This document shows positions 38,113 through 57,155 of a DNA stretch of 64,000 nucleotides, piece after piece (the first letter of the stretch is position 1; each line of letters opens with the position of its first letter). The notes beneath the pieces are model-generated. The model was not told the DNA's origin, did no database searches, and was given only the letters and a program-made list of their open reading frames with translations. The stretch comes from Leptolyngbya sp. FACHB-261 (GTDB lineage Bacteria > Cyanobacteriota > Cyanobacteriia > FACHB-261): the NCBI RefSeq assembly GCF_014696065.1, contig NZ_JACJPL010000026.1:124001-188000 (forward strand). Direction: 5' to 3'. The position numbers and the translations under genes were made by a program.

Positions 38113-38127
38113 GTTGCTAGCTCCCAT

Positions 38128-41345: not shown

Positions 41346-41364
41346 GAAAAACATAGCCATGAAC

Positions 41365-41613
41365 TTAATAAAGGCTAGAGGACTCTAATGCTCGTAGTAA
41401 GGATTTGACAAATCTTTCGCCGAATACACTCGATAGTGACCCGCACAGTATAATCAGCAATGATGCAATTCCTATATTAGGCAAATTCAATTCTGTAGAT
41501 GATAACGAGTAAGGAATGATCACCATAAAAGCACCAAGAGCAGATCCTCCCAAAAATCGGTAGATAGCGGTAGTGGCAGAACGCTGTTTGAGATCGGTAT
41601 CTTCAGAAGCCAT
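41365..41613 (-). CDS. Small two-TM membrane protein, 82 aa
   Basis: Starts MASEDTDLKQRSATTAIYRF. TM1 is about residues 21-41 (GGSALGAFMVIIPYSL) and TM2 about 48-66 (IGIASLLIILCGSLSSVFG); it ends FVKSLLRALESSSLY. AAAGAGAG lies before the ATG. No family recognised. It lies between attC-like sites 1 and 2 with short leaders, the layout of a gene cassette. Confidence 0.65.
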   Translation of the reverse strand: MASEDTDLKQRSATTAIYRFLGGSALGAFMVIIPYSLSSTELNLPNIGIASLLIILCGSLSSVFGERFVKSLLRALESSSLY

Positions 41614-41666
41614 ACAAACTCTCTTTTAACTCGCTAGTAACTCAATATTCACACACTAACATAGAG

Positions 41667-41755
41667 GTCTAACTGATTGGCTCATCGGCGACAAGGCAAC
41701 CTTCGATGAAGCCTGTAGGCTCTAATGTGCTGTCTGACACAGCCGCATGTTGGGT
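41667..41755 (-). other. attC-like site 2
   Basis: GTCTAAC (41667-41673) and GTTGGGT (41749-41755): on the minus strand these read ACCCAAC and GTTAGAC, both exact to RYYYAAC/GTTRRRY. GGCT...TC is shared by the inner halves, weaker pairing than site 1. Lies 11 bp after the GNAT stop at 41767 and 54 bp before the 82-aa gene's start. Confidence 0.55.
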
Positions 41756-41766
41756 GGCATTATGGG

Positions 41767-42294
41767 TCAGGTCGGAGGATAACCATCCCGGCTGATCTGC
41801 CAACGCCATAGCTTGCCTTCTTCAGGGTCATCAATTTCGGCAATGAATGTCATTCCCACTTTCTGCAAGACTCTATTCGAGGCGTTTCTCTCAGCCAAGG
41901 TATGAGCCATGACAACTTGCACCGCCTCGTGAGCGAAAGCGCAATCGATCAGTTGCTGTGCTGCCTCCGTTGCAAATCCGCGATTCCAATATTCGGAAGC
42001 AATTTCATATCCTATTTCTACAGTGCCTGACTCATCAGGCGGGCCTTTGAAACCTCCATTGCCAACAAGCATTCCCTCTTCTGGGTGAATAAAGAAGTAT
42101 CCATGCCACTCTCTGAGATCTGGGCTAGATTCGCGAGCTTCGTCGGCAGGGAGGGAAAATGCTTCTGGAAAGTGAGGCCAGCTCTTGGGCACAGTGACCT
42201 GTAACATTTCTGCAAGCTCGCTCTTGCTGCGCAGGAGTGCTTCGATGTGAATTCGTTCGACGATGAGCAATTGAAGATTGTTGATCTTGACCAT
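41767..42294 (-). CDS. GNAT acetyltransferase, RimJ/RimL type, 175 aa
   Basis: Typical of GNATs that acetylate protein or small-molecule amines: VGNGGFKGPPDESGTVEIGYEIASEYWNRGFATEAAQQL (acetyl-CoA loop, RGFATEA), AHTLAERNASNRVLQKVGMTFI. The first ATG is used. Soluble, about normal length. Followed at its 3' end by attC-like site 2. Substrate unknown. Confidence 0.88.
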   Translation of the reverse strand: MVKINNLQLLIVERIHIEALLRSKSELAEMLQVTVPKSWPHFPEAFSLPADEARESSPDLREWHGYFFIHPEEGMLVGNGGFKGPPDESGTVEIGYEIASEYWNRGFATEAAQQLIDCAFAHEAVQVVMAHTLAERNASNRVLQKVGMTFIAEIDDPEEGKLWRWQISRDGYPPT

Positions 42295-42836
42295 GTTCCT
42301 GTTTTATTGATCAATTTCTCATGGCAAACGGCTCTCAGCTCGAGATAAGCTGACCAATTTCAAATCAGCTAGTACATAACTTTGGACTAAGCCTTTTAGG
42401 GTAATGTGTATTGGGGTTGGCTCATGCTCCAATCTTAAATTTCCGCCGCGAATTCATTAGACCTGTTCTACAGACAGTTCACCTGTTCTGGCTCAGTCGT
42501 TGCCTACAAGCTGCTCCTGCCCCTTGGCTAGCCTCCTCTGTAACGCTCAAGTTCTGATCTGTCCGCAACATATTAGAGAGAAGGCTTCTGTATAGTATGC
42601 AGCTTCAGGTGGATAGGCAAAATGCTTTAGCCTGTTTCCGGTGCGATGCAGTTGCCCACGAGCTGCGGCGATGCTTATGAGGTGAACGGGCAACTAAACA
42701 AAACCGGCGCTGTTGAACTTGCAACCTCTTGAACTTAGTTTCCAACAGATAATTTCTAAATTATGTTCCTAACGATAACCTGAGCCCATTCACAGTCTGC
42801 GTGTTTCGGTCAAGATTTTATAATCCATCAAGCACT
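42295..42836. other. Intergenic region of about 540 bp
   Basis: No gene seen. Holds GTTGCCC (42651-42657) / GGGCAAC (42688-42694), a perfect 7-bp inverted repeat with the wrong polarity for attC, and a weak pair TCCTAAC 42767 / GTTCAAC 42848 spaced like an attC but without inner pairing. Confidence 0.3.
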
Positions 42837-43589
42837 TTAACTTCCCCGTTCAACTCGCAAGACAGTTTTGATGGTCTCGGTAAGACGTTTCTCGAACTCT
42901 TGTATCCCTCGTGGAGTATATGAATATTGGATATAACGCATGTGTTTTATATCAAACGGTACATCATCATTATTTTGGGTGATTAGGATAACGGGTTTTC
43001 CAATCACGTGTCCAAGCCCAATCTCATAGAAAACGTTTGGATTGCGCTCTGTGCAGTCTGCAATTATCACTTTCGCTGAACAAATAGCACCCCAGACATC
43101 CAACATGACAGAATGGGCAGTCGAGAAGTCATCTCCACGCGCAATACTCAAATTCAAATCCGCCGCCACTTTTACAATGTGGTCATCATATAGAGGCTTC
43201 ATTTCCGGTTTAAATGGCATTAAGACAAATATATCAGCGCTGCTAATGGACTTATTCGGTAATCCAAAATAAGGTTTCACAATCATGGACTTGTTGGGAT
43301 CTAGCTTAGATACTTGTGTCAAGCTAATTCCAAGCGCGTTCTGAATCTTTTCCCATTGTTTTGAAACTTTAATCTTGCCAATTGCTGGGTGACCCCAACG
43401 ATCTCCTTCTTCAGCTGTAAACTCTATAAGGCCAGCTTCTCGAAGTTCATCAAGAGTATGACGGAGGATCCCATGTGCGGTGTGATATTCATGAGGCTGT
43501 AATCTACATTGAATACATAAGCTTGTCCAGTCGTTTGCAATTCCATTGCGTAGTAGAAGAAGGATTGTGCTGCCCTGAAAGCGATTCAT
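42837..43589 (-). CDS. Winged-helix plus TIR-like / nucleoside-deoxyribosyltransferase-like protein, 250 aa
   Basis: N-terminal 90 residues look like a winged helix (GILRHTLDELREAGLIEFTAEEGDRWGHPAIGKIKVSK). The C-terminal domain reads ADIFVLMPFKPEMKPLYDDHI, SAKVIIADCTERNPNVFYEIGLGHVIGKPVILITQ, VPFDIKHMRYIQY. This is the nucleotide-binding fold of 2-deoxyribosyltransferase/TIR-like (STIR-like) proteins, with Asp and Glu at the usual sites (ADC...NPNVFYEIG). Relatives are often found near defence genes and may cleave or bind NAD-type nucleotides; this is inference. Single gene in the candidate cassette array. Confidence 0.75.
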   Translation of the reverse strand: MNRFQGSTILLLLRNGIANDWTSLCIQCRLQPHEYHTAHGILRHTLDELREAGLIEFTAEEGDRWGHPAIGKIKVSKQWEKIQNALGISLTQVSKLDPNKSMIVKPYFGLPNKSISSADIFVLMPFKPEMKPLYDDHIVKVAADLNLSIARGDDFSTAHSVMLDVWGAICSAKVIIADCTERNPNVFYEIGLGHVIGKPVILITQNNDDVPFDIKHMRYIQYSYTPRGIQEFEKRLTETIKTVLRVERGS

Positions 43590-44191
43590 CTATACTTGCC
43601 TTTAAAATGATTGGCTGCCTTGGAGTTGCGGTTCAAGACTACTGTTAAGCTAGCCCTTAGATTGCTCCTCTTAGTAATTCTCTCCTATTTCACAACCTCT
43701 CGAATGCCATGATTACTTGCTTCTGGAACTCGATAGCAAAGTTGTCATCCCTAAACCAATATATACACTACCTGCAAAGTAGCGCTGTTTCTTTAAGAAA
43801 CGGCGCTTTCCTCGTAACCAATGCCAGCCCAGCTAGCCAACCGTACCTTGGTGTTGTTGGGTAACTCTTTCGTTTACAGCACGGCGTGAAAGCTTTAGCT
43901 AGCCTACGAGATGTGGCATGCAGCGGGCCGCAACAAGTGCTACGAGAGCACCAGGCGGGCTTGCTAGCACCCGAATATCGACTAATCTAGCCTCGTTCAA
44001 AAGTGTCTCGACCTAGCTAGGAGCCAGCAGACAGCTACCCCCAGAACACCGCTCGTAGTCGGGCAAGAGCTGTAGTCACTGGATCAGTGCCGGGATTAGC
44101 CATTCGAAGTTGTTCAGAAAGTACATCAATCTACCTGAAAGTCTGCCTTGAAAGACTTTTAGGGATTTTACCAGTCAACGTAACCTAATCA
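43590..44191. other. Gene-free stretch of about 600 bp upstream of the TIR-like gene
   Basis: No frame longer than about 60 codons looks real. Near 43617-43640, GCCTTGG-AGTTGCGGTTCAAG resembles attC-like site 3 (GCCTAAC-GGTTGCGTTCAG) but no partner end is found. A hairpin lies at 43781-43807 and a GTTGGGT box at 43856-43862. It could be one or more empty or decayed cassettes. Confidence 0.3.
43781..43807. terminator. Hairpin with 13-bp arms
   Basis: AGCGCTGTTTCTT (43781-43793) pairs with AAGAAACGGCGCT (43795-43807) at 12 of 13 positions plus a G-U pair, with a one-base spacer, so the practical loop is TTTAA. It lies 190 bp upstream of the TIR-like gene. Terminator or structured RNA. Confidence 0.5.
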
Positions 44192-44277
44192 GCCTAACGG
44201 TTGCGTTCAGCGGTGACTATGTGTCCTGGCCACAACCTTGAGACTTCAATCAGTCCGCTGCAAAGCAGTCGTTCGAC
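44192..44277 (-). other. attC-like site 3, overlapping the S41 protease 3' end
   Basis: GCCTAAC (44192-44198) and GTTCGAC (44271-44277). Inner box GGTTGC-GTT-CAGCGG pairs with CCGCTGCAAAGCAGTCG allowing extrahelical bases. The protease stop (44246) lies inside, as is common for cassette genes. The right end has one mismatch to GTTRRRY. Confidence 0.55.
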
Positions 44278-45586
44278 CACGTATAGTTGCTGCTGGAGAA
44301 TTTCCCTCTGTTCGCATAATTAACTGTTCAATTGCGTGGCGATATTGAATATCTGACCAAGAAGCAAACACGATTGTTGAATCCAACAATGGAGAATTTT
44401 CCATGTCTACGCGCACGTTTGGGATGATACCAGAACCAAGAATTGGATGACCGCTTGGTGTTCTCACTTGTCCAGTTGTCACAGCAACGACAGCCCCATC
44501 CGCAAGCGGCAAGAAGTTGTGCACTATCCCTTTGCCAAACGTCGGTGTTCCCACAACCGTAGCTCGTTTAGCCTCTAGAAGCGCGCCAGCCAGAAACTCG
44601 GCTGCGCTGGCTGTTCCTTCATTGACAAGCACCACCAATGGCTTATCTGTCAACTGTAGCCCTATGGAACGAAGTTCGGTTGTGCCGCTTCGCTCGACTG
44701 ATATACCGATGGTACTCTCTCCTAAGAAGAATCCTGCAATTTCCTGAAGCGCAGATACAGAACCACCGGGATTGTTGCGCAAATCTAGCACAAAGCCATC
44801 AGCATTTTGGATGTGTTCAAGTGCTGTTTTCAATTGCTGAGGAGATGATGCTGTGAACTGATTGAGAATAATGTACCCAACTTGTCGTCCTTGCCAAACT
44901 GCTTCCAACCTTGCCTTAACTGCTGGGATGGGCGTAATCTCTCTACGGCTCAATATGACATCAAAGACTGAATTGTTCCGTTGAATAGTTAACTGCACCG
45001 TCGAACCTGCGCTACCTCGCAGCCTCATTGCCGCATCGCCTAAATCCATCCCATGCGTTGAGATGCCATTGATCCTAAGGACACGATCATTAGGACGCAA
45101 TCCAGCCTCAGCAGCGGGAGTATTAGGGGCAGGGGTTACCACTGTTAGTTTTCGAGTTTGTTCGTCAATGTCAAGTGATAACAACTCAGGCAATCCCACT
45201 CCAATATGAGGCTGACCTGTAACCTCCCGTTCAAACCCTGCAAATTGTTGAGGCGTTAAGAGGCGGGTTGCCGGGTCGTTAAGCTGACCAAGTATCGCTC
45301 GAATGGCTGCGTAGGCATCTTCTGATGAGGTGTAACGATGGGATTGTATTGCCTCACGAATCTGCTGCCAATTTAGCCCACTAAAATTTGGGTCGACGTA
45401 ATTCTCATCAATAATCTGCCACGCCCGCTCCACCCACTGTTGAAGGCGGCTCGAAGGTGAACTTGTGATTTTTTCCCTTGCGTTAGAAGCTTTGCCTGGT
45501 GGCACGTTCGCGAGCGCGGGTGTGCAAATGCTGAGGAGTGATGTAGCCGTGGCAATCAGAGCACTGTAGACGAGAAACGAATTCAT
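44246..45586 (-). CDS. Carboxy-terminal processing peptidase, S41 family, 446 aa
   Basis: Signal peptide (MNSFLVYSALIATATSLLSI, cleavage near ALA), an N-terminal helical domain (QWVERAWQIIDENYVDPNFSGLNWQ), a PDZ domain (IGVGLPELL...GLRPNDRVLRINGISTHGMDLGDA) and the S41 core. Catalytic Ser is in NEGTASAAEFLAGALLEAKRA and Lys in GTPTFGKGIV, the Ser-Lys dyad. CtpA in cyanobacteria trims the D1 protein; cyanobacteria carry several paralogues, so this copy need not be that one. Start chosen at ATG 45586 with AAGGAG upstream. Its 3' end overlaps attC-like site 3, so this copy may be cassette cargo. Confidence 0.9.
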   Translation of the reverse strand: MNSFLVYSALIATATSLLSICTPALANVPPGKASNAREKITSSPSSRLQQWVERAWQIIDENYVDPNFSGLNWQQIREAIQSHRYTSSEDAYAAIRAILGQLNDPATRLLTPQQFAGFEREVTGQPHIGVGLPELLSLDIDEQTRKLTVVTPAPNTPAAEAGLRPNDRVLRINGISTHGMDLGDAAMRLRGSAGSTVQLTIQRNNSVFDVILSRREITPIPAVKARLEAVWQGRQVGYIILNQFTASSPQQLKTALEHIQNADGFVLDLRNNPGGSVSALQEIAGFFLGESTIGISVERSGTTELRSIGLQLTDKPLVVLVNEGTASAAEFLAGALLEAKRATVVGTPTFGKGIVHNFLPLADGAVVAVTTGQVRTPSGHPILGSGIIPNVRVDMENSPLLDSTIVFASWSDIQYRHAIEQLIMRTEGNSPAATIRGRTTALQRTD

Positions 45587-45729
45587 GTGTCTCCTTGCAA
45601 TGTCAGCCTGAATCACTATTTGAAGTTTACACCAAGCTTACTTATATCTCGGTCTGACAATAACCTGATTTGAGTACTTCCTCATCGAAGTTCAATAATT
45701 TATTATGCTGAATAGGTATGTTAGTAAAC

Positions 45730-46164
45730 TTACACGTTGAAATGAATAAGGGTTACGCGCATTGCGATGAACGACACTGTGAGTGTAGCAAATAGATAGA
45801 GGTAGAACCGAAGCATGACGAAATTGGATGCGCAATGGACAACGCTATGCAATGCACAAAACGCAACAAAGACCCACGCGGCGTTTACATACATTACGTC
45901 TACCTGCTTCATGATAGAGACATATGAGACAAGTGCATAGAAAAGCACCGGAATCTCGAACAGATTCTTTAGGCTGTCCAAGGGATTGGATACATTTGGT
46001 AGCGATATTTGCGCCAGTTTTCCAGGTGCAGCGAGGTCTTTCGGGTGGAGCTTTCTACTTGTGATGAAACTGATATGACGGATGTATATGTACACCCAGA
46101 CCAGGAGTTTCAGAAACACTGTTGCAAAAAAAGGACTGAAGATTGCATCTTGCGCCACTATCAC
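45730..46164 (-). CDS. MAPEG-family membrane protein, 144 aa
   Basis: Four TM segments. The family signature is visible: NVSNPLDSLKNLFEIPVLFYALVSYV, then VAFCALHSVVHCASNFVMLRFYLY. MAPEG proteins are membrane-bound glutathione or eicosanoid enzymes; bacterial roles are mostly unknown. A GTTAGTA box (45720-45726) sits right after the stop, as in the attC-like sites, but pairing with the left half is poor. MAPEG genes are frequent cassette cargo. Confidence 0.82.
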   Translation of the reverse strand: MIVAQDAIFSPFFATVFLKLLVWVYIYIRHISFITSRKLHPKDLAAPGKLAQISLPNVSNPLDSLKNLFEIPVLFYALVSYVSIMKQVDVMYVNAAWVFVAFCALHSVVHCASNFVMLRFYLYLFATLTVSFIAMRVTLIHFNV

Positions 46165-46641
46165 CTCTCACGCTTGAGCGTTCTGATAGTTGATGGGCAA
46201 ATAAATTGCACTACACGGCAAGCCTTGAGGAAACATAGAATAACGCGAAATCATAAAGTAAGTGACCCCAATCATTAACAACCGGGCAATCAATTGGATG
46301 TTAAAGACTGCCGAAGTTGCATAAAGGCTCATCTCTAGGGACCGGATGGGAGCTACTCGCTATCAATTTCCGGGTCGATGGTTATGTCAATTTGTTATTG
46401 AGCTCAAAGTTAATATAGACTGAGCGCTTCAATTTTTCTAGAGCTCGATCGGGTAGACTTCAGTCAACTTCCCCTACAAAAAATCTCCTGAAGCTTCTTT
46501 CTGAAGCCATCGACCAAGCCCGTCTTCATTCCGAACATTGCCATATGATGGTGGGACGAGCACAAATTGCAATCAATGACTGGTGTGGTGGGTTACAGGT
46601 GTAGTGGGTTGCACTTGTGAAAAGTCAATGCCTACCTTCAA

Positions 46642-46666
46642 CACACAAATCGGTCAGATTTGTGTG
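46642..46666. repeat. Perfect 10-bp inverted repeat, 5-nt loop
   Basis: CACACAAATC (46642-46651) and GATTTGTGTG (46657-46666) around GGTCA. It could be an operator for a dimeric regulator or a hairpin; no promoter elements were identified. Confidence 0.5.
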
Positions 46667-46692
46667 CCGTCTGTCTGCACTTATCTGTTTAG

Positions 46693-46714
46693 GCTGCGAT
46701 GCTGCAATCGCAGC
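46693..46714 (-). terminator. Hairpin downstream of the GNAT gene at 46768
   Basis: GCTGCGAT (46693-46700) and ATCGCAGC (46707-46714) form a perfect 8-bp stem, loop GCTGCA, 54 bp after the GNAT stop. No U tract, so only a probable transcript end. Confidence 0.4.
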
Positions 46715-46767
46715 ACCAACCCTTTAGAACTGATCGCTTAACGCTTCTAGCTACAACGGCTTCGGTG

Positions 46768-47271
46768 TCAGTGCTCAGAGAGGCTACGTCCAGCCCACTG
46801 CTCCTGAGGTGTCAGTGCCTTGCGATAAACGATCTTGTCATCGCCTGCACTGTAGAAGTCGCGGATCCGCGCTTCCTCGTCGTAACCGCACTTGCGGTAG
46901 AATGCCCGCGTGCGCTCGAAGCCCGGTAACCCTGACGTTTCCACCAGCAGCATGCGCCCGCCCCGCGCAGCCAACGTTTGTTCAACGTAGCGCAGCAGTG
47001 TCCCACCGCGTCCTTGTCCCTGGCGGTCGGGTCGGATGGCGATCAATTGCAGGTTCCACGTCTGATCGGTCATCCGTTCCGGCTCGCAGTAGGCGACCCC
47101 CACCGGTCCGTCGTCGTCGTCAGTGATCCAGAAATGATCACTGTTGCTGTCGCTACCGAAGTAATCGGCCAGCATTTCGCTCAGCTCCTCAAGCTCATTC
47201 GGCTGAAAGCCAATCACGTCTGCTATGGCGAGCAGCGCGGCGGTGTCATCGGGCGTAGTCGGTCGAATCAT
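46768..47271 (-). CDS. GNAT acetyltransferase, 167 aa
   Basis: GNAT fold: MIRPTTPDDTAALLAIADVIGF, the acetyl-CoA loop IRPDRQGQGRGGTLLRYVEQ, and FERTRAFYRKCGYDEEARI. Full length, soluble. The DNA is clearly richer in G and C than adjacent genes (for example the stretch 46960-47110), pointing to a different origin. Same strand as two further GNAT genes but separated by 59 bp and more, so probably independent units. Substrate unknown. Confidence 0.87.
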   Translation of the reverse strand: MIRPTTPDDTAALLAIADVIGFQPNELEELSEMLADYFGSDSNSDHFWITDDDDGPVGVAYCEPERMTDQTWNLQLIAIRPDRQGQGRGGTLLRYVEQTLAARGGRMLLVETSGLPGFERTRAFYRKCGYDEEARIRDFYSAGDDKIVYRKALTPQEQWAGRSLSEH

Positions 47272-47330
47272 AGAGAACTCTGTGTAAGTGTAAAAGCAGT
47301 AGCAGGAGATCTCGAAGGTGCCATCCGCAC

Positions 47331-47810
47331 CTATAGCTTCTTGAAGTACCTAGCGATTGGAAGCAGCCCGAAGCCTAGCTTTTCATAGGTGCGACGTGCT
47401 GGAGCATGACCGGGGTCGCCTCCAGTCTCTACCATCGCAACAGACATCCCAGCGTCTTTCATCCAATCAAGAGTGAATTCTATAAGAGCGCTGCCAATAC
47501 CCTGACCTTGGAAGTCTGGGTCGACGGCGACCATGTAGATTTCACCCATGCTGGACTCGGAATCTAGTTTCACGGCTACAAAGCCCACAGTTGAACCTGC
47601 ATCGATAGCAACCCATACATTCGTGTCTTCCCCAGCACAAACATCCTCGACAGCTTTTTGCTGGCTCACACGCCAATTATCGGGATAGAATGCCTGGTAC
47701 ACATCAGCGTCCATCGCGTTTTGAATCGAATCAAAGACCGGACCCCATGCCCGAAGCGAAAGACGAATAACGGCATCAAGTTGGTGGGGGGTGTATGGTT
47801 CAATGTGCAT
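47331..47810 (-). CDS. GNAT acetyltransferase, 159 aa
   Basis: Reads MHIEPYTPHQLDAVIRLSLRAW, FVAVKLDSESSMGEIYMVAVDPDFQGQGIGSALIEFTLDWM (acetyl-CoA loop QGQGIGSA) and DPGHAPARRTYEKLGF. This last block is usual for GNATs with a GDPGHAPAR motif. Full length, start at first ATG. A short 6-bp hairpin AGGTGC/GCACCT lies near its 3' end (about 47317-47333). Confidence 0.88.
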   Translation of the reverse strand: MHIEPYTPHQLDAVIRLSLRAWGPVFDSIQNAMDADVYQAFYPDNWRVSQQKAVEDVCAGEDTNVWVAIDAGSTVGFVAVKLDSESSMGEIYMVAVDPDFQGQGIGSALIEFTLDWMKDAGMSVAMVETGGDPGHAPARRTYEKLGFGLLPIARYFKKL

Positions 47811-47855
47811 TTTGTATAGACTCCAAAAGACGCGAGGTTCCTAGGTGCTCAAGCT

Positions 47856-47944
47856 GCCTAAGGTTGCTTGTCACCCACTGCAGATAACCTCAGACGCTTA
47901 GTCAGCAAGCTCTTAGTAGTCGGTGTGCATTGGCATTGTTATGT
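47856..47944 (-). other. attC-like site 4 (degenerate)
   Basis: GCCTAAG (47856-47862) and GTTATGT (47938-47944), spacing 89 bp. The left half GCCTAAGGTTGC resembles site 3 (GCCTAACGGTTGC). TGC and CACC blocks pair. Located 19 bp after the GNAT stop at 47964. Core boxes deviate from consensus, so confidence is low. Confidence 0.35.
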
Positions 47945-47963
47945 CTTGCAACACACAGAATTC

Positions 47964-48515
47964 TTAAATGGGACGCTCCCAACGTTCGCCGTACTGTCGA
48001 TATCCAACCCGCTTGAACGTAGAAATCATCCGCACATTGTTGACATCTGTGTCACAAAATATTCGCCAAACTCCGATATCTTGTAACATTCGTGTTCCTT
48101 GCAACAACAGATCGTTTGCAAAACCCAATCCTCGGTACTCTGGCACAACTCCGATATCGTAGATAGTTGCTTCTTCTAAATCTTCTTTGGCACAGTTTTT
48201 AAAGATGACAGGAAGCACAAATCCTACAACGTCCCCGCTCTCGTTAATCCCAAACTGCCACCAGCTATCTTGATACGAGAAGTCATCGCTTGCCGAGCTC
48301 AAATATCTTTCAACTGCTTGGTGAGGCTCGGGTTCTGAAACTTTCCTCTGATGACTTGGATTCATTGACGAAGCCCAAACACGGACAACGATTGAGATCA
48401 GTTGGTTGCCATGCATTGCATTGACAGGTTTGAAGGTTAACCGCTGTGGAACTTCAATCAGCGGTCTATGCTCTTCCCAAACAAAAGGCACTTTTAGATA
48501 GGTCTGCTGATTCAT
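47964..48515 (-). CDS. GNAT acetyltransferase, about 183 aa
   Basis: Start chosen at ATG 48515 (MNQQTYLKVPFVWEEHRPLIE); the frame is open upstream but that part does not look protein-like. GNAT core: WWQFGINESGDVVGFVLPVIF, ATIYDIGVVPEYRGLGFANDLLLQGTRML (acetyl-CoA loop YRGLGFA), DTDVNNVRMISTFKRVGY. Third GNAT in a row on this strand and fourth within 7 kb. Its codon use is AT-richer than the GNAT at 46768, so these are not recent duplicates. Confidence 0.85.
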   Translation of the reverse strand: MNQQTYLKVPFVWEEHRPLIEVPQRLTFKPVNAMHGNQLISIVVRVWASSMNPSHQRKVSEPEPHQAVERYLSSASDDFSYQDSWWQFGINESGDVVGFVLPVIFKNCAKEDLEEATIYDIGVVPEYRGLGFANDLLLQGTRMLQDIGVWRIFCDTDVNNVRMISTFKRVGYRQYGERWERPI

Positions 48516-48629
48516 AGGCAATAGCAATAAGAATCTGTAAACTTTGCCAATCGTACTACAGAATACTACAAAGTGCAACTCGCTTGGTTCTGAATGCTCA
48601 AAAATAACTTTTAGGCTGCTGCCCTCGCT

Positions 48630-48727
48630 GACCAACCAGCGACATAGTGGCTCAAGTCAGCCCCTGCAGTAACCTCGAACCTAACTGCAGGGGCTGACGA
48701 AAGTCTGCTGCATTTAAATGGTTAGAC
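48630..48727 (-). other. attC-like site 5 with a perfect 15-bp inner stem
   Basis: GACCAAC (48630-48636) and GTTAGAC (48721-48727) flank a perfect 15-bp inverted repeat: 48656-48670 and 48684-48698, starting GTCAGCCCCTGCAGT, loop 13 nt. The right box overlaps the HxlR stop codon. The left box has one mismatch. The inner stem may alternatively be a terminator for the HxlR gene. Confidence 0.45.
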
Positions 48728-49105
48728 GGTTGCCTGGCTCTCTATCAAATCTTGGTCCTGTTGCTGTGCCTCAAGTTGTCGCTGCAGCTCCTCAATGGAA
48801 TCTAGAATTGGCATGAAACGCAGCCCAAAATCTGTAAGTTGATACTCCACATGAGGTGGAACTTCAGGATACACAACCCTCTCTAGGATACCCAGGCTTA
48901 CCATACGGCGGAAGTAGTAGTTTCCAACTTTAGGTGTTAGTCCCTCTAGCTCACGCTCAATAGCACCAGGGCGGCAGACACCCCTGCGGATAAGGCCCAA
49001 GATACGGAGTGACCATTTGCAACCAAAAACAGCCTCTACAACCTCTGCTACATTTGGCACTCCTTTCAAAACTTTTTTCTCCTGATAGGACTGCATTTCT
49101 TTCAT
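48722..49105 (-). CDS. HxlR-family transcriptional regulator, 127 aa
   Basis: Winged helix of the HxlR type: VVEAVFGCKWSLRILGLIRRGVCRPGAIERELEGLTPKVGNYYFRRMVSLGILERVVYPEVPPHVEYQLTDFG. Two cysteines (GCKWS and GVCRPG) might allow redox sensing as in some HxlR proteins; not shown. I start at ATG 49105, which leaves a 20-bp palindrome just upstream; the longest frame (to 49156) would put the palindrome inside the gene. Divergent from an SDR, a very common HxlR arrangement, which is probably its target. Confidence 0.85.
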   Translation of the reverse strand: MKEMQSYQEKKVLKGVPNVAEVVEAVFGCKWSLRILGLIRRGVCRPGAIERELEGLTPKVGNYYFRRMVSLGILERVVYPEVPPHVEYQLTDFGLRFMPILDSIEELQRQLEAQQQDQDLIESQATV

Positions 49106-49121
49106 TAAAGTACCGTACCTA

Positions 49122-49141
49122 ACAAAAATGTACATTCTTGT
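49122..49141. promoter_or_regulatory. Candidate HxlR operator, 20-bp near-perfect palindrome
   Basis: ACAA-A-AATGTACATT-C-TTGT: only the A/C pair breaks symmetry; the core AATGTACATT (49127-49136) is a perfect palindrome. It sits between the divergent HxlR regulator and SDR genes, where autoregulation and control of the SDR are expected. Confidence 0.6.
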
Positions 49142-49204
49142 AAGAACTTGCGGCATCTTTTACGCTCTAAATCACAACAAGCGCAAAGAATTAGGGAGAA
49201 GAAG

Positions 49205-49963
49205 ATGAGCCTGAACGATAAAGTTGTGCTGATTACAGGAGGGGGTACTGGTATTGGTGCAGATGCTGCCCATGCTTTCCATGCTGCTGGAGCTAAAGTT
49301 GTTCTTAACGGACGGCGCCAAGATAAGTTGTCGCAAACAGCCGCAAAAATAGACCCATCTGGCGAAAGTGTTGCTTATTTAGCTGGTGATATTGGACGCC
49401 TGGAAACAAGCCAAAACTTGATGGAACTTGCAGTTGAACGATTTGGTGGTGTAGATATACTATTCAATAATGCAGGTGTATTTCAACCAAAAGCGTTTCT
49501 TGACCATACAGAGCAAGATCTCAACGGTTACTTGAATCTGCTGCGGGGATACTTTTTCACGTCACAAGCTGCCATTCCAGAAATACGTAAGCGGGGTGGT
49601 GGAGCTATTGTAAACCTCGGTTCGATGTGGGCATTACATGCGATCGCCGCAACTCCATGTAGTGGCTCCTCAGCCGCTAAAGGCGCTGTGCATGCGCTCA
49701 CACGCAACTTAGCGATCGAGTTTGCACCAGAGAATATTCGTGTCAACGCCATTGCACCAGCTGTGGTTGAAACACCTCTTTTTGATTCTCTGCTAACGCC
49801 TGAGCAACTCGCTTCTTTTAATGCCTTTCACCCATTGGGGCGTAATGGGCAACCTAAAGATATCACGGAAGCAGTTTTGTTTTTGGCAGATGATTCACGT
49901 TCTGGTTGGATTACAGGAATCGTTTTACCTGTAGACGGCGGTGTAACCACAGGACGCAACTAA
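49205..49963 (+). CDS. SDR-family oxidoreductase lacking the usual catalytic Tyr, 252 aa
   Basis: Starts at ATG 49205 with AGGGAG six bases upstream. Rossmann motif TGGGTGIGADAA, NNAG in ILFNNAGVF, Ser in NLGSMWAL, and the C-terminal DDSRSGWITGIVLPVDGGV. Where classical SDRs have Tyr-x3-Lys, this reads SGSSAAKGAV, with Ser at the Tyr place, so normal hydride-transfer catalysis is doubtful or the residue is supplied otherwise. Divergent from an HxlR regulator. It is on the plus strand, unlike most genes here. Confidence 0.85.
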   Translation: MSLNDKVVLITGGGTGIGADAAHAFHAAGAKVVLNGRRQDKLSQTAAKIDPSGESVAYLAGDIGRLETSQNLMELAVERFGGVDILFNNAGVFQPKAFLDHTEQDLNGYLNLLRGYFFTSQAAIPEIRKRGGGAIVNLGSMWALHAIAATPCSGSSAAKGAVHALTRNLAIEFAPENIRVNAIAPAVVETPLFDSLLTPEQLASFNAFHPLGRNGQPKDITEAVLFLADDSRSGWITGIVLPVDGGVTTGRN

Positions 49964-50447
49964 TTTAAGTCAGTCTCCCTTGGTAGTGGAGTATTTTCTA
50001 AAACCATATTTCCACTACCTGACCAACCTTGTCGAAACACTATCTCAACCAATAATCTAAAGCCGTCTAACCTTCCTGCCCACCGTCTGCCACGGTCTTT
50101 GTTACAACATTAGTAGCTTGCAACAATTCAGTGCAGCATGATGTTAGCTATCAAAAGAGCATTTAGTGTTTTGGCGGATAGAATGCCACTCAACCAAAAT
50201 CTTCCAGTTTTAGAGGTTTTAACAACTTTTTTAAAGAGACGATGAATCCTTGTAAAGATCAAGTGTGAAGATGAAGAATAAGCAATATTTGAGGTATTGA
50301 TTGTGATAGAAGCTTCTAAACTTTAGAGGCAGTAGTTCTAATCGCCCAAACTATCACCTAGCTTAAATTCGTTGATGTTTGAACAATGTTTTTTGAGAAG
50401 ATCGTTCGTCTCCACAACTCCTGTTACAAGTATTGCGGCGCAAACCC
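49964..50447. other. Intergenic region of about 480 bp, nothing recognised
   Basis: AT-rich, between the SDR and the HEAT-repeat lipoprotein, both on the plus strand. No gene, attC-like site or strong hairpin seen. It presumably holds the promoter of the lipoprotein gene. Confidence 0.3.
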
Positions 50448-51545
50448 ATGGTAATCAAATGGCTATACGGATTTGTTTCTGCCTCTAACCTCCTTCGTTG
50501 TCTTGTTTTACTATCTCTACTGTTATTCAGCAGTAGTTGTCTGTTTGAGTCTATTGAACGTAAAGGAGATAGAGGAGACTGTTCAGATGTTACTAATGGG
50601 ATATCTGAGCAAGATCTCTATTCCTTGGGATCTGAAGAAGTAAATATTGATAATCTAAAAGCTTCTCTAAAGAGTTGGAATAGTGCAACTCGCTATCAAG
50701 CTCTTTGGGTTCTGATTTTTAAAACAGAGCCACACACAATATTAACTACCCTCATGACAGCGGTTCAAGATGAAGATCCGAGGGTACGAGAAACTAGCAT
50801 TAAAGGACTGGCTACGGCAGCTGAATCTCAAGCAACACTAATCCCTCAAATTTTTCCCATCTTAACTCAAGCAATGCGGGATAGAGATCCAGGAGTACGT
50901 GTAGCTGGTTTTAGCGGACTAACTACAGTTGCCCTACATCAAAAGACATTAATTCCTCGTGTCCTCCCTTTGTTCACGAATGGATTGAAGGATCGAAGCG
51001 CTTGCGTCCGTGCCAGCTCTGCATCATTTCTCGAAAGTCTTATCCGGGAGTCAGGACCTTATAAGAGCGAGTTAGAATTAGTTATTCCAGATTTGATTGT
51101 AATGGCGTCAAGAGATTCAAGTGCTTGGGCACGTAGGCATGCTCTAGATGGTTTGGGCTCAGCAAATGTAGCTTCAGAAGAAATAGTTCCTATACTAATT
51201 ACGGTTTTGAAGAGTGATCCAGATGCAACTCTTCGTAACGTATCGGCTACTGCATTGGGTCAGAAGGTAGCAGAACCAGAGGCTACTAAAGCGCTAATTG
51301 AAGCCATTAGCGACCAAGATGCAAGAGTTCGTACTTCGGCAGTATACAGTTTGCTGAAAATAGAACCAAACCCATTGATTAACCAAAGTAATTTGGAGAA
51401 GTTGTCTGACCAAGGATTAAAAACGGCTATCTGGGCTCTGGAGAGATGGTCAAAAGGCCCAGATGTGGAGAATTGGAAAAAAACTGCTATCCCACCCATC
51501 CTCAATGCTTTAATTGCTGAAAGAAGTTCACGCTTACAAAAATAA
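50448..51545 (+). CDS. HEAT-repeat lipoprotein, about 365 aa
   Basis: Signal sequence with lipobox LFSSSC (cysteine about residue 31 from ATG 50448), so an anchored lipoprotein. The rest is HEAT/PBS-lyase-type helical repeats: MTAVQDEDPRVRETSIKGLAT, TQAMRDRDPGVRVAGFSGLTT, TNGLKDRSACVRASSASFLES, VMASRDSSAWARRHALDGLGS, VLKSDPDATLRNVSATALGQ, AISDQDARVRTSAVYSLLK. Such repeats form a protein-binding solenoid; the partner is unknown. Two upstream starts are possible, but only ATG 50448 gives a normal signal peptide length. Confidence 0.82.
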   Translation: MVIKWLYGFVSASNLLRCLVLLSLLLFSSSCLFESIERKGDRGDCSDVTNGISEQDLYSLGSEEVNIDNLKASLKSWNSATRYQALWVLIFKTEPHTILTTLMTAVQDEDPRVRETSIKGLATAAESQATLIPQIFPILTQAMRDRDPGVRVAGFSGLTTVALHQKTLIPRVLPLFTNGLKDRSACVRASSASFLESLIRESGPYKSELELVIPDLIVMASRDSSAWARRHALDGLGSANVASEEIVPILITVLKSDPDATLRNVSATALGQKVAEPEATKALIEAISDQDARVRTSAVYSLLKIEPNPLINQSNLEKLSDQGLKTAIWALERWSKGPDVENWKKTAIPPILNALIAERSSRLQK

Positions 51546-51709
51546 CGCTGTTTCTGATTTAGGGGCTAATGCTCGTGTTAAGGGGTGTAGTTAACATTCA
51601 TAACCCCGACCAGCGTTTTTTTAGTCCAAGTGCATGTGCTTTTTAGGCTGTGCCATGACTCTATCCAGAGTTTACCTTGGCGCACTCATTCTTCGTTGCT
51701 TCTAAGGCG

Positions 51710-52552
51710 CTAACGAGTTTTGGTCGCCTGTAGGACAGTTGACACATAGTCGAGCACAAATCCCGGCTCCGCTTCTTCAATCTGAACTCTACTCATCGGC
51801 ATAAATTCTTTAAATATCGGCTCAATAGAAGAACTCGACGCAAATATAAAGCCATCGAAAGAAGTTGTGCCGCAATCGAAATCAGACGATACTTCAACTG
51901 TATAACCAAAACCCTCAAGCCGTTCCACAACATCTAAATGCAATTGTTGGGAATGGGTTGAGATAAAGAGATAGTCTATTTTTTTATTTGTCAATGAATT
52001 AGAGCAGCCCTCCAACATCTCCACTTCATATCCTTGGATATCAGAATGAAGGATGTCGATTTTCTGTATACTTCTTTCTGCTAAATATTTATCAACCTCA
52101 AACTGGTCGTTACCGACAAATGCCTGAATGAATTCGCCAGTGAACCCATTCAGCTCAAAATTATGTTTTCCTACGTTTAGATTCTGTGGTTCTGGCTCCA
52201 CCAGATGAACTTTTGCATTGGGATAGGTTTTCTTCAGCCACATTGAGTAGTGTCCCCAGTAGGCACCCAGTTCAACCATCAGGGGCGAGGTTTGGAGGTG
52301 ATTTAATACTTCTTGAAATACAAATTCCTCTAGGGGTTCATGAACTCCGCGATTTATGCAGAGAATCGAACTGAACTCATCATAGTAGGCGTAAGGACCA
52401 GAGATTGGCACCTTCAACCCGTTGTGAAGATAAACATCATTGCCTTCCACAAAGCCAGCACGAGGATCCCTTCGGATAGCAAGGTTAAGTGGGTCTGAGA
52501 CAATTTCTCTAAATCGTCCTGTGAAGTCCTCAGCGATAGCTTTTTGTCCCAT
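51710..52552 (-). CDS. FkbM-family methyltransferase, 280 aa
   Basis: SAM-binding motif LMVELGAYWGHYSMWLKK, acidic VHLVEPEPQNLNVGKHNFELNG, and IDILHSDIQGYEVEMLEG with DYLFISTHSQQLHLDVVERLEGFGY are the FkbM pattern. Such enzymes O-methylate sugars or other small molecules. It starts 54 bp after the end of attC-like site 6, the layout of a cassette gene with a short leader. No clear attC is found at its own 3' end. Confidence 0.85.
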   Translation of the reverse strand: MGQKAIAEDFTGRFREIVSDPLNLAIRRDPRAGFVEGNDVYLHNGLKVPISGPYAYYDEFSSILCINRGVHEPLEEFVFQEVLNHLQTSPLMVELGAYWGHYSMWLKKTYPNAKVHLVEPEPQNLNVGKHNFELNGFTGEFIQAFVGNDQFEVDKYLAERSIQKIDILHSDIQGYEVEMLEGCSNSLTNKKIDYLFISTHSQQLHLDVVERLEGFGYTVEVSSDFDCGTTSFDGFIFASSSSIEPIFKEFMPMSRVQIEEAEPGFVLDYVSTVLQATKTR

Positions 52553-52605
52553 CTGTCTTAACCTCTGGTAAACCGAGCGATTGACTACAATTTGAAGTTA
52601 TAGCA

Positions 52606-52691
52606 GTCTAACGGTTAAGTTGAGCCGACGCAAATAACAGCCAAACCCCAGTCCACAACTTCGCGGTGTTCGGCTTCAACAACAGCTAGCT
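52606..52691 (-). other. attC-like site 6
   Basis: GTCTAAC (52606-52612) with partner GCTAGCT (52685-52691), one base off GTTAGCT as seen in site 1. The inner boxes GTTGAGCCGA (52619-52628) and TCGGCTTCAAC (52670-52680) pair over 10 bp with a single extrahelical base, the classic attC L-box arrangement. It precedes the FkbM gene by 54 bp. Confidence 0.65.
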
Positions 52692-52967
52692 CCCACCGCG
52701 ATTTTCTGAGGGAGCTACGCCACCCGTGTCACGACGACATCATGGGCTATGCTGCTCTCAATGCCTGTGCTCCCATCAGGCCCGTCAGCTGCCGGTGAGA
52801 TGTGTCCGTTCTCGCTGAATTTGCCACGAGACGCTTCAGATCTAGGAATGGTTCGAATTTTTGTGAATTGTCCGTGGTCATGTTGAGTCACTGTTCAGAT
52901 TCTCTCATGCCTTGATGGTTCCGGTGCAAGGCATTGTTGGGCGTGCTAGCTGTACACTGCCCTTTCC

Positions 52968-53681
52968 TTAGAATGGGTCGAGCATTGCCACAATATCAAT
53001 GTCTCTGATACAGCTCTCTCTTGAAATTTTAATGATGCATTCCATAACCGTAACTAAATCTTGTGGAGCTATTACTCCGTCATATCCCTCAACCGGCTCA
53101 ACCTCCATCTTGTCTTGGTGGAATCGAATTGTGCCGAATGTTCCAGGATTAAGCAATGTGATACCAGTTTTTTCCTGACGTAATCCCTGTTTGAGGGCGT
53201 TGACAACCCCTCGTAGACCAAACTTTGAAGCAGCATAAGCAACTGCTTGACCACTTACGTAATCATGGCTGTTCGCTGAACCCACTAGGATAATTTTGGG
53301 GTTCTGCGACAGCCTTAAGTTTGGCAATAGGGCTTTAATGCAAGAAATTGCAGTGACTAGATTGATCGTCAATATCCTTTCGTTCTCTTCATCTGTAACA
53401 TCTTCAAATTTGTACTGTTCTGTAAACGCGAGTGTTTCCCAGATTCCAGCGTTGTAGATAGCAGTATCAAGTTCTTCTGCTGCGATCGCACTTGATACAA
53501 CTTGGCTCGCACCCTTCTTCGCTAAATCAGTTTCTATCCAAATCCGCTCGATTTGATCTTCAAGATGCAATGTAGGTTTTGCCCTAGAGACAAGCCACAC
53601 CTTATCACCTGATTCTGGAACGAAGCGATGAAAGACTTCGCCCAAACCCCAGCTGGCACCAAAAATAACAAAACGGTTCAT
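52968..53681 (-). CDS. SDR-family oxidoreductase, 237 aa
   Basis: Rossmann motif MNRFVIFGASWGLGEVF, YNAG in TAIYNAGIW, Ser in ILVGSANSHDY, and YAASK as Tyr-x3-Lys. The nucleotide loop is unusual (GASWGLGE), and the C-terminus (YDGVIAPQDLVTVMECIIKISRES) resembles the short clan of atypical SDRs. Substrate unknown. A degenerate attC-like half-site (GGTTGCGGTCAAG near 53794-53806) lies upstream. Confidence 0.85.
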   Translation of the reverse strand: MNRFVIFGASWGLGEVFHRFVPESGDKVWLVSRAKPTLHLEDQIERIWIETDLAKKGASQVVSSAIAAEELDTAIYNAGIWETLAFTEQYKFEDVTDEENERILTINLVTAISCIKALLPNLRLSQNPKIILVGSANSHDYVSGQAVAYAASKFGLRGVVNALKQGLRQEKTGITLLNPGTFGTIRFHQDKMEVEPVEGYDGVIAPQDLVTVMECIIKISRESCIRDIDIVAMLDPF

Positions 53682-53832
53682 CTTCTATCAAGAACCTTGA
53701 AGCATTGTCTGATCAACAACCTCATGGTAGCTTGAGTCTAAACCTACGCAGATAATCTTTCAATACCGTCTCCATTAGTGTGAAACAGCTTGGGGTTGCG
53801 GTCAAGCGGCTGTAAGCAACCTTTCTTCTACA

Positions 53833-54554
53833 TTAGGGGCCTAAGGTTTTATAGGCTATTACAAAGAACATTGTGACATCATTCCAATAACCTTCTGTGG
53901 TTGAAGCTTGATTGATTTGTGTGAGGTATTCCTGTTTACATCGTTCCAGCTGTTCTTCTGACCATTTTGCACCCTGAAGGCCAAATGCACTGTTGGCATT
54001 GCCTACCCAAACACGTTCTGCATCTTGTAAGTAGAAGCCAAATTGTTCGGTTTTGATTTTGCTCTCTTCAAATCCAACCATTTTTAAGATTTGGTGGCAT
54101 CTCCCAGGTGTTCCAAGTAATTTATTAGGATTTGGGATAGTAACCCCGTATTTTTGTGCCACTGCTCGAGATAAGACAGACGCGGATGGGGAGCTTTCAG
54201 CAAGGCAGGAAAAGGCAACGACTCCCCCCGGTTTCAAAGCCTTGTGCCATCGACGGAGTGCTGTCGAAATATCTATCAAGTAAACAATTGCCGATGAACA
54301 AAGGATGGCCTCAAACTGGCTCTCCTGCAATTCTTTCTCATCTGCATCTGCTTGCTCAGATGTTTGTCAATCCTAAAGTCTCAATCTTCTGCTGAGCTTG
54401 CTGCAACATCTAGAACTTGCTGACCTGGCTGTAATTTCGCCAACTCTACTAACCGAGTTGCAGCCTGTCTGTGAAACTCGTTCTCATAATTTGGGCAGTT
54501 GTTGAAGTCATTGAGAACCTGCTGTTTGTAAGCACTAGATGAGGAGTCAATCAT
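53833..54554 (-). pseudogene. Broken class I SAM methyltransferase
   Basis: From ATG 54554 the frame reads MIDSSSSAYKQQVLNDFNNC, then LVELAKLQPGQQVLDVA, the start of the SAM motif. There the glycine-rich loop and following strand are missing: the next sequence, in another frame, is QAQQKIETLGLTNI, then another shift to EQADADEKELQESQFEAILCSSAIVYLIDISTALRRWHKALKPGG. The remaining open part (53833-54330) is 165 codons. The loss of the SAM-binding loop and at least two frame changes make it non-functional. The C-terminal half is well preserved. Confidence 0.85.
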
Positions 54555-54618
54555 ATTGAGCTACTGATCTGGCTCCCTCTATTGTGCTGTCGATAGTTGA
54601 TCCTTGACCAAAGTTCCG

Positions 54619-54707
54619 TCGTAACACAACTTGAACCCAAACCCTCACAGACGAGCCTCAAATCTTGCTCCTAGCGAGAACTTGTGGCATAACGGTCGTC
54701 GTTATGT
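54619..54707 (-). other. attC-like site 7 (degenerate)
   Basis: TCGTAAC (54619-54625) and GTTATGT (54701-54707), 89 bp apart; the right box overlaps the stop codon of the next methyltransferase gene and is the same as in site 4. Inner pairing is weak. GTAACACAACTTGAACCC here resembles GTAGAACAAGTTGAACCC at 55547, suggesting a shared ancestor. Confidence 0.35.
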
Positions 54708-55451
54708 GGCACCACGGCGACCCACGACGATCGGTTGGGGAAGGATTCCGTTCAAGCGTTGGACATCTGTAAAGCCTACCTCTCTAAAAAGAGACATCAG
54801 CCGCTCAATTGTAATCGTATAGTAACGAGATAAACCAGCAGTAACCCTAGCAGGAGTGCCTTCTCTTATCTCCTGTACAAAATACATGGCAACGTCGTAA
54901 GTATCGTGACTCCAATCACGAGTTTGATACACGAAGTAGCGATCGCTCCCGTCGTAGCGGAACCCATATGGCCACATCTGTGGGGAGGATCTATCCTCAT
55001 CCTCAAGGTACTCGCGGAGGTTCACGACAGCCACTCCATTTTGCCTCAAGCACTTGTAGAAACCTCGGAGCGCAACTCGGATCTCATCTTCGCTAGAGAG
55101 ATGTGGTAGGGAGTTGTCAGCGGTTAATACCACATCAAATCCAGAGCCATGAGTTTCGGCACAGTGCCGCATGTCTGCCACTTTAAACGTAATGTTGAGT
55201 CCGCGTGTTACCGCTTCTTTTTGCGCTCGGTTAACGGCTGCTGCCGCTAGATCAGATGCCGTAACAGTGTGTCCGAGCGTGGCGAGTCCCAGTGCCTGTG
55301 TTCCAATCCCGCATGAAACATCAAGGATCAATAGTGGTGCTGAACCCACCCAATTACTAAGGACACTGTTCAGAGCGGAGCCCTGCGTTTCGATGGCTTC
55401 GTTCCAGTTGGGATAAATCAGGTGATAAAGACTAGCAATATCGTCGTACAT
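54702..55451 (-). CDS. Class I SAM-dependent methyltransferase, about 249 aa
   Basis: Begins MYDDIASLYHLIYPNWNEAIETQG, then ILDVSCGIGTQALGLATLGHTVTASDLAAAAVNRAQKEAVTRGLNITFKVADMR. This order is familiar from glycine/sarcosine-type methyltransferases and their relatives. The acidic VVLTADNSLPHLSSEDE region is the motif post-II. Start taken at ATG 55451; an upstream in-frame ATG would add 15 residues. Glycine betaine synthesis is possible but not supported by context. Attached to attC-like site 7. Confidence 0.85.
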   Translation of the reverse strand: MYDDIASLYHLIYPNWNEAIETQGSALNSVLSNWVGSAPLLILDVSCGIGTQALGLATLGHTVTASDLAAAAVNRAQKEAVTRGLNITFKVADMRHCAETHGSGFDVVLTADNSLPHLSSEDEIRVALRGFYKCLRQNGVAVVNLREYLEDEDRSSPQMWPYGFRYDGSDRYFVYQTRDWSHDTYDVAMYFVQEIREGTPARVTAGLSRYYTITIERLMSLFREVGFTDVQRLNGILPQPIVVGRRGAT

Positions 55452-55629
55452 ATCAATATTGGCGACGTGTGAACTAGAAACCGTGACGAAGACCAATTCA
55501 TGTTGCTGGCCTGCGGCCTGTGGAACTACTACTTGGAGTTAACGAGGTAGAACAAGTTGAACCCATGCAATTTAGAGATCCACTCAATAATTCCCTACGA
55601 TTTCGCAACTTCTCTAGTAGATATAGATG

Positions 55630-56121
55630 CTAAGGATATTCAATTAAAACAGGACCTTCTGGAAGGAATCGACCTCGATAGTTAGTTTTCTTATCCTTGC
55701 CACACAGGTTTCCCATCGGAATCGGCTTCTTGAGCGGCTCTAACTCTTGCACCTCCCAAAACACTGCCCAGTTTGGGGTGTCGGTAGCGGTTGATTTAGG
55801 GCGATAAATTGATTTACCTGGATAGCGACCTCGACGAGAACCGACATAGCCCACGTACAATCCCCGCCAGGTTACCTCTGGGTTTAAGGGTTGATCCCCT
55901 TTGGCATGAGAGGCATAGATGAAAACCTCGATTGCCTTTCCATCTCGCAGCTTTTCGACTTCACCAAAGAGTTCAAACGCCATGCTGCCAAAAGCCACTT
56001 TTGGCAGATGATCGGGCGGTAGCTCGTCAGAGTCAAGCTGGGCGGCAATCGCCTCCAAGCCAGAGATCAGGTGCATCTCTGGGACGGGAGCAAGAATTGC
56101 GAAGGCGTGAGTTTTTTGCAT
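55630..56121 (-). CDS. Hypothetical protein, 163 aa
   Basis: Soluble protein. Notable stretches: LPKVAFGSMAFELFGEVEKLRDGKAIEVFIYASHAKGDQ, TWRGLYVGYVGSRRGRYPGKSIYRPKSTATDTPNWAVFWEVQEL. It looks like a beta-barrel type fold; I do not recognise the family. The first ATG is used. It lies next to the helicase remnant on the same strand, and could be another defence-associated remnant, though nothing in the sequence shows this. Confidence 0.6.
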   Translation of the reverse strand: MQKTHAFAILAPVPEMHLISGLEAIAAQLDSDELPPDHLPKVAFGSMAFELFGEVEKLRDGKAIEVFIYASHAKGDQPLNPEVTWRGLYVGYVGSRRGRYPGKSIYRPKSTATDTPNWAVFWEVQELEPLKKPIPMGNLCGKDKKTNYRGRFLPEGPVLIEYP

Positions 56122-56188: not shown

Positions 56189-56530
56189 CTAGAAAGCAAA
56201 ACGGGTCGGCTCAACGATAGTCCGTTGCTTCAACCGCCGCACCATCACCACTTGAAGTTGCTTGCGGTCTGGTTCACCCCCCTGGCAAACCATTGAGTAT
56301 CTAGCAATTCCAGCAATGCCGTCAAGTTCCCTGGATAACCGTTATGAGGAATCGCGGTCAAAAATAGCTTGTGTTCAAAGTGGAAAACGAGTAAGCGAAT
56401 GGTGACCGTTCCCTGAGAGCCGACCTTATACTGCCCGCTGCCGGAAGGAGCCAACTTATGGGCCTCATCCACAGTCAGCAGATCAAAGCGACGGGGGTAG
56501 ATAGATAAGCCTTTACTGATTTGTTCTCAA
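56189..56530 (-). pseudogene. Remnant of a DrmD-like SNF2/DEAH helicase
   Basis: Reads SIYPRRFDLLTVDEAHKLAPSG, then VTIRLLVFHFEHKLFLTAIPHNGYPGNLTALLELLDTQWFARGV: the Walker B DEAH and motif III (TAxPHNGY) region of SNF2 helicases such as DrmD of DISARM. After RGV a G-run frameshift follows and the next frame gives EPDRKQLQVVMVRRLKQRTIVEP, ending at 56189. Only about 110 of some 1000 codons remain, and motif III has TAI in place of TAT. No other DISARM gene is seen here. Confidence 0.6.
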
Positions 56531-56585
56531 GATAGTAGAGCGTGCTTTTGCCTGGGTTGAGTGGTTTTGTGGATTTAAGCGACGG

Positions 56586-56978
56586 TTGGGTGGAGTGATT
56601 GGGGGCTTGTCTGTGTTTCTACTTATAAGTTTGTTGCGATTTATTGCTTGGGTGGGACTGGAATCAACAATGGCGACCGCCGAAATAACATCTGCGGTCG
56701 CCGAAACAGCTTTTGAGTATTCCGAAATAACATCTGCGGTCGCCGAAACAGCTTTTGAGTATTCCGAAATAACATCTGCGGTCGCCGAAACAGCTTTTGA
56801 GTATTCCGAAATAACATCTGCGACTGTGGAAATAGCTTTTGAGTACTTCGAAATAACATCTGCGACTGTGGAAATAACATTGGCGACTGCGGAAATAGCT
56901 TTTGAGTACCCGGAAATAACATCCGCGACCGTCGAAGTAATAAATACCTACGGCGATGCTCGCGGCGTGAAGGAGTAG
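56586..56978 (+). CDS. Possible membrane-anchored heptad-repeat protein, 130 aa
   Basis: Open frame from TTG 56586 (GTG 56595 also possible). A hydrophobic N-terminus GGLSVFLLISLLRFIAWVGL could be one membrane segment. It is followed by twelve 7-residue repeats (EITSAVA / ETAFEYS and variants), encoded by the 21-bp tandem repeat, and a short tail. The opposite strand (56641-57033) is also open as an Arg-rich heptad repeat (MLFRNTQ / KLFRRPQ), starting 34 bp from attC-like site 8. I cannot say which, if either, is translated. Confidence 0.35.
   Translation: MGGVIGGLSVFLLISLLRFIAWVGLESTMATAEITSAVAETAFEYSEITSAVAETAFEYSEITSAVAETAFEYSEITSATVEIAFEYFEITSATVEITLATAEIAFEYPEITSATVEVINTYGDARGVKE
56682..56933. 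repeat. 21-bp tandem repeat, 12 units in a 42-bp alternation
   Basis: Units begin at 56682, 56703, 56724 and every 21 bp to 56913. They alternate GAAATAACATCTGCGGTCGC- and GAAACAGCTTTTGAGTAT-type units; the first three 42-bp pairs are almost identical, later ones diverge. Unit length is a multiple of three, so both strands stay open. Confidence 0.9.
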
Positions 56979-57067
56979 CGCAACAAAACCTACACGGTTG
57001 AACCAGCGACATCTGCTCGAATTCAGCAGACAAGCTCTAGATTACGTCCTCACCCACAACCTGAGTA

Positions 57068-57155
57068 GCCTAACGTTGACCATTACCTGCCGCAGACAAT
57101 TTCTTATTGCCAACAGATAAACTCTCGGCGGTCAGGTGTATGGGCGTTGTTAGGC
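57068..57155 (-). other. attC-like site 8, both core boxes exact
   Basis: GCCTAAC (57068-57074) and GTTAGGC (57149-57155) are exact inverted copies and fit RYYYAAC/GTTRRRY. Inside, CCAT, ACCTG and CCGC blocks of the left half recur in the reverse complement of the right half with single-base offsets (extrahelical bases). Length 88 bp. It lies 34 bp from the minus-strand repeat frame. Confidence 0.65.

Follow-up and report, generated by a model that had tools for sequence, protein, structure and literature searches.

The 88-bp site at positions 57068-57155 (minus strand) of the 64,000-nucleotide stretch of Leptolyngbya sp. FACHB-261 DNA analysed here (the window) is almost certainly an attC, a predicted recombination site, and the repeated module adjacent to it is very probably a decayed integron platform, namely the 3' flank of a lost intI gene. 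The site would thus be part of a decayed sedentary chromosomal integron, with the broken remainder of a platform directly behind its R' box. Complete copies of this unit elsewhere in the genome carry their own attI, and whether they were moved by IntI through attC × attI recombination is, in our judgement, evenly balanced. The attC assignment draws on a covariance model, the fold and matches across the class.

The first-pass annotation had reported exact inverted copies, GCCTAAC (57068-57074) and GTTAGGC (57149-57155), spanning 88 bp, as well as inner blocks pairing with offsets, and we found both. The two boxes agree with the R'' RYYYAAC and R' GTTRRRY consensus sequences. Read on the top strand of the site, which is the minus strand of the window, R'' GCCTAAC occupies 57155-57149 and R' GTTAGGC 57074-57068, and the crossover is presumed at G↓TTAGGC (boundaries are marked by an arrow). 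Folding of the 88-nt minus strand, proposed in that annotation as a check, gave an imperfect hairpin in which R'' pairs with R' and L'' with L', the spacer bases stay unpaired and extra bases lie in one arm (-17.7 kcal/mol, z -2.59, 3 of 200 shuffles as good); the corresponding values for the plus strand were -18.6 kcal/mol, z -2.85 and again 3 of 200. RYYYAAC..GTTRRRY pairs 50-160 bp apart occurred 12 times in 141 kb, one of them perfectly complementary, and five first-order Markov copies of the same 141 kb contained 11-19 such pairs, of which 0-2 were perfectly complementary, so in this comparison the box motif alone shows no excess over chance. As box pairs are not enriched and the fold is only modestly better than that of shuffled sequence, the boxes alone are insufficient to make the case for attC, and the significance of the site comes from its membership in the attC family, recognised by the model described below. 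The refutation proposed in the first-pass annotation fails on the fold and on the profile match, although shuffled DNA does equal the bare box motif.

In order to define this family, 388 genomes of the class were sampled and searched with 196 bp around the flagged site; matches were present in 107 of them, almost all within the attC half of the query. Seventeen sites at the loci of the best matches, all from other genomes, were aligned into covariance model R1 (selected from the 19 loci L069-L087, with omission of L074, a near-duplicate of L069, and of L083, which has a poor left end). The modelled structure consists of TAAC/GTTA, GCCCAT/ATGGGC, CAC/GTG, CCG/CGG and CCG/CGG; its 5' arm has single extra bases. 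In the alignment 98.5% of 323 cells are paired and 4 of 19 pairs have changed on both sides, while control slides of 1-3 columns left 31-52% paired. R1, from which the flagged site is absent, gave it a minus-strand score of 89.5 bits, with E 5.4e-23 in 287 kb and 1.3e-21 in the complete 6.9-Mb genome, and a plus-strand score of 20.8 bits. Since the 17 sites were found via their similarity to the flagged region, the site is held out from the model in sequence and not in discovery. The genome-wide R1 search had 43 of 46 matches listed at E <= 0.03. Rfam at gathering thresholds gave zero matches in the window, which is no argument against attC. The pairing of R and L boxes with extra bases on one arm, together with a profile match far above chance, upholds the original attC reading.

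To fix the orientation we used 80 intI loci from the class (20 + 60); in 38 of them the model detected attC 5' of intI. Of the 78 attC on this side, 77 are on the opposite strand to intI. Left out of this count were the opposite-strand duplicates of one site each in L146 and L183, as well as three weak rows for L215 (E 0.034-0.049). It follows from this relation that the top strand of the flagged attC is the window minus strand; the site therefore closes a cassette that lay to its right and read leftwards on the minus strand, and the 21-bp repeat on its left sits in the unit after it. From 57156 to katG there is no minus-strand ORF of at least 80 aa, apart from one overlapping the katG start. 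This katG, right of the flagged site, belongs to the peroxidase family, its four best relatives are from Myxacorys, Nostoc, Leptolyngbya and Lyngbya, and in these nearest relatives (L290-L293) no convincing attC was seen in front of katG. Behind the katG relative in Leptolyngbya sp. FACHB-60, at a distance of about 220 bp, there is an attC-like site of 37.3 bits (L292:8440-8526).

To the left of the flagged attC further minus-strand sites form an array in one orientation. These are attC at 47856-47944 (R1 52.6 bits) and 41260-41345 (41.7 bits), degenerate attC at 52606-52691 (23.5 bits), 44192-44277 (20.1 bits, E 0.0014 over 35 kb with filters off) and 38237-38324 (27.2 bits), and a possible degenerate attC at 50065-50149 (14.8 bits, E 0.048 over 35 kb). 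ORFs in 36913-56121 are mostly on the minus strand. Elsewhere in the window, 9392-24667 holds three very long minus-strand ORFs of 2004, 1397 and 1440 aa. In three small genomes of one family (loci L193, L207 and L215) the attC are located 3' of intI and share its strand, an arrangement resembling a reversed integron layout, and a Kovacikia plasmid match was found for the source genome.

The module behind the R' box recurs throughout the genome (contigs are given below as C, other genomes as G and loci as L). In complete copies the order is attI, intI (as a remnant or deleted), a 3' flank with 21-bp repeats and the terminal CCTGAGTAGCCTAA↓C. On the array strand this tail appears as an attC-like sequence followed by G↓TT(A/G)G(G/C)C-TACTCAGG, the attC differing from copy to copy. 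Tails were found at nine places in the genome, the window included (E < 1e-17), each before a different attC-like sequence. When unit ends were aligned, 12 of 13 stopped at an R-box-like AA/AG↓C against differing attC-like sequence, the one at C26:216k being degenerate, and mean pairwise identity was 0.67 inside (40 bases) versus 0.37 outside. Nine tails adjoin an R1-detected site, with scores of 89.5, 81, 45.7, 45.2, 36.6, 22.6, 19.5, 19.3 and 15.8 bits (the window, C13:147068, C26:208481, C20:60257, C31:202223, C26:214572, C26:191436, C13:152338 and, as the weakest at 15.8 bits, C1:348225), and the neighbours of the other 4 of 13 fall under the R1 reporting limit. A class-wide conserved 'leader' after R' had been considered because several BLAST matches extend beyond the box, and it was rejected, most such loci running into varied sense ORFs.

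The window copy retains only the 3' flank. It is composed of a middle part (56501-56681, plus strand), where homology to complete units begins, 12 units of the 21-bp tandem repeat (56682-56940, no strand assigned) and the conserved tail (56960-57074, plus strand), which terminates in CCTGAGTAGCCTAA↓C at the attC boundary. At about 56501 the unit is truncated and meets part of an unrelated gene (56220-56500, minus strand, approximate left limit, read from its translation), which, from a translated motif, we take to resemble a DEAH helicase gene. Having neither attI nor intI, the copy is inert and cannot move, and a search for excised circles at this place, as the first-pass annotation proposed, should give a negative result. 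The start of the repeat, as well as a minus-strand repeat frame (56641-57033) beginning 34 bp from the flagged site, are where that annotation had placed them. The same repeat type is present in two other genomes, G374 and G190 (L284 about 4180-4430; L285 about 3740-4080), whose 8-kb stretches match the unit pattern 8 and 12 times; it constitutes a tandem repeat family.

At their other end complete units start with RYYYAA↓CTATTATTG...TTTCCGTATAACACC, accompanied by short direct repeats. A query made from this end, referred to as attI, gave 18 matches in the genome, which correspond to 17 copies as the one at C26:320k was matched in two pieces. An R box is placed at the crossover in 16 of the 17 (the exception is C31:186824), and in those 16 identity is 0.33 outside and 0.84 inside, the outside sequences being different. 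Five other genomes (G083:C8, G303:C3, G253:C266, G246:C32 and G038:C254) have this sequence 76-78 bp upstream of a full or nearly full-length intI match, which in G253 and in G246 contains one in-frame stop, and it is this position that identifies the far end of the unit as attI. An attI homologous to that beside intI, by which we recognise a platform unit, is thus carried by the complete units; the window copy is without it. Some attI copies (C20:1665, C20:7575, C27:606060 and C26:319298) have in common as much as about 1 kb of a different downstream sequence and may represent a second type of platform unit.

The genome yielded no intact intI: none of 11 TIGR02249 matches exceeded the cut-off of 265 and the best one, at 60.1 bits, covers residues 1-67, hence there is no complete integron with an intact intI beside attI. 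What is left are IntI remnants, 57-76% identical to IntI of the class, at C26:190989, C26:205088, C26:213833 and C5:14704. The remnant at C26:213833 (residues 8-81) lies between attI and tail, and those at C26:190989 (residues 1-37 and 132-162) and C26:205088 (residues 18-72) are accompanied by a tail, with no attI seen. Most attI copies have no trace of intI within 1.5 kb. At C26:216k a weak signal of the C-terminal part of intI, in collinear order, is present in the left part of an intI-less unit (E 0.018 and 0.73, compared with 0.17 for the best shuffled control). Among 34 attI-like loci of other genomes (L250-L283), tblastn detected an adjoining intI gene or fragment in 6 (L250, L261, L262, L268, L277 and L281), with a distant, 27%-identical recombinase at L258 left uncounted and L263 and L273 ending too near the contig edge; orphan attI thus seems to be common in other genomes as well.

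Explanations other than a decayed platform beside an attC have to be weighed against these data. The inverted boxes could be a hairpin arisen by chance or some other intergenic repeat, in agreement with the equal frequency of the bare motif in resampled sequence; with the genome-wide E of the held-out model, the strand-specific score and the matches in 107 of 388 class genomes against it, we regard this as extremely improbable. The unit could also be seen as an ordinary gene cassette with the 21-bp repeat ORF as its cargo and the flagged site as its attC, given that open frames run across the repeat on both strands and that the unit starts at a cassette-type boundary. However, the flagged attC is wrongly oriented to close the unit and complete units end in attI, not attC. 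A coding role of the repeat is itself disfavoured: in 62 repeat units from the copies, variable columns are distributed over codon positions 1, 2 and 3 as 3/4/4 (hand count, near-invariant columns excluded), and Pfam matched neither repeat frame. This explanation is accordingly very unlikely. The earlier suggestion that the repeat could be cassette cargo is thus half right: the repeat does lie in a unit that follows the attC and recurs behind many such sites, but this unit is very probably a decayed platform and not a gene cassette with the repeat as its gene.

The more serious rival concerns the way in which platforms multiplied, namely by segmental duplication of integron blocks, with differing neighbours produced by later gain and loss of cassettes. 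Exchange of cassettes at attC and attI would indeed likewise make neighbours differ, and the available text of PMC2426708 describes intI pseudogenes attributed to duplication within a genome. The arrays themselves argue against it. At C31:196-206k four units (attI at 196689, 198542, 201439 and 205273) alternate with attC in one orientation (197092, 197504, 199514, 200279, 200535, 201252 and 202223), and in a self-comparison of C31:192-212k the repeats of the array are unit copies only, starting at the attI crossover, whereas the cassettes between them are single; other repeats, at 208-212k, lie beyond the array. Most repeats in C26:104-245k are likewise unit copies. The confinement of the C31 repeats to units suggests that units moved singly rather than by block duplication, which we consider possible and rather less probable. 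A search with 16 cassette starts across 16 genome stretches found no empty site, i.e. an attC and next cassette both with and without the unit, the one 40-bp match being beside its own place. Neither an intact integrase nor a circle was observed, which leaves the mobility of the units an inference, and the source genome is the sole member of its order in our sample, which makes the unit untraceable in a close relative.

According to the reading by movement, each unit would be flanked by an attC-type box at one end and by its own attI at the opposite end, so that an array comes to hold several attI; we see equal chances of this reading being right or wrong. A possible start is suggested by three of the 80 intI loci (L149, L151 and L155), in which an attC 3' of intI points at it from 3.3-4.7 kb away and never abuts the gene; recombination of such an attC with attI would excise everything between. 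IntI may once have excised and inserted attI-bearing units in this manner, with a cassette-like spread through arrays. Platforms could then have behaved as mobile cassettes, with IntI acting in trans at attC sites and intI-less derivatives multiplying like non-autonomous transposons, a proposal that we would neither favour nor disfavour. As the genome has no intact intI, the units should now be frozen unless an integrase arrives from outside.

The flagged attC itself belongs to an already known kind of site. Integrons in cyanobacteria are listed in the available text of PMC2426708 and PMC8618304, and the available text of PMC8352920 describes cyanobacterial attC with a published taxon-specific covariance model. 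To go by the latter, our site has in common with attC of cyanobacterial sedentary chromosomal integrons the R''/R' boxes, the imperfect hairpin with extra bases in one arm and the single-orientation arrays away from intI, and is without essential difference from them. Clusters of attC without integrase are known as CALIN, as stated in the available text of PMC8618304, and the arrays studied here likewise lack a functional intI, but attI sites and platform remnants persist in them, several per array, in cassette slots. With an integron platform (intI + attI) the units share an attI homologous to the region upstream of class intI and remnants in the canonical direction; they differ in being present in many copies, in the loss of intI and in having the far end of the 3' flank at the R' box of the preceding attC. 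The CALIN definition uses IntegronFinder spacing. Set against that definition, attC sites are present, some of the gaps between them are wider than 4 kb, and attI occur within the arrays. In the open literature neither attI-bearing or intI cassettes nor intI-less units in cassette slots were recognised by us, coverage of subscription journals being thin and the absence unproven.

Should platforms indeed be mobile as attI-bearing units, new attI capture points could arise in arrays, and integrases could be lost or regained, with no transposon needed. Such mobility can be tested by known recombination assays, and it would help to explain why many attC arrays are found without an integrase.
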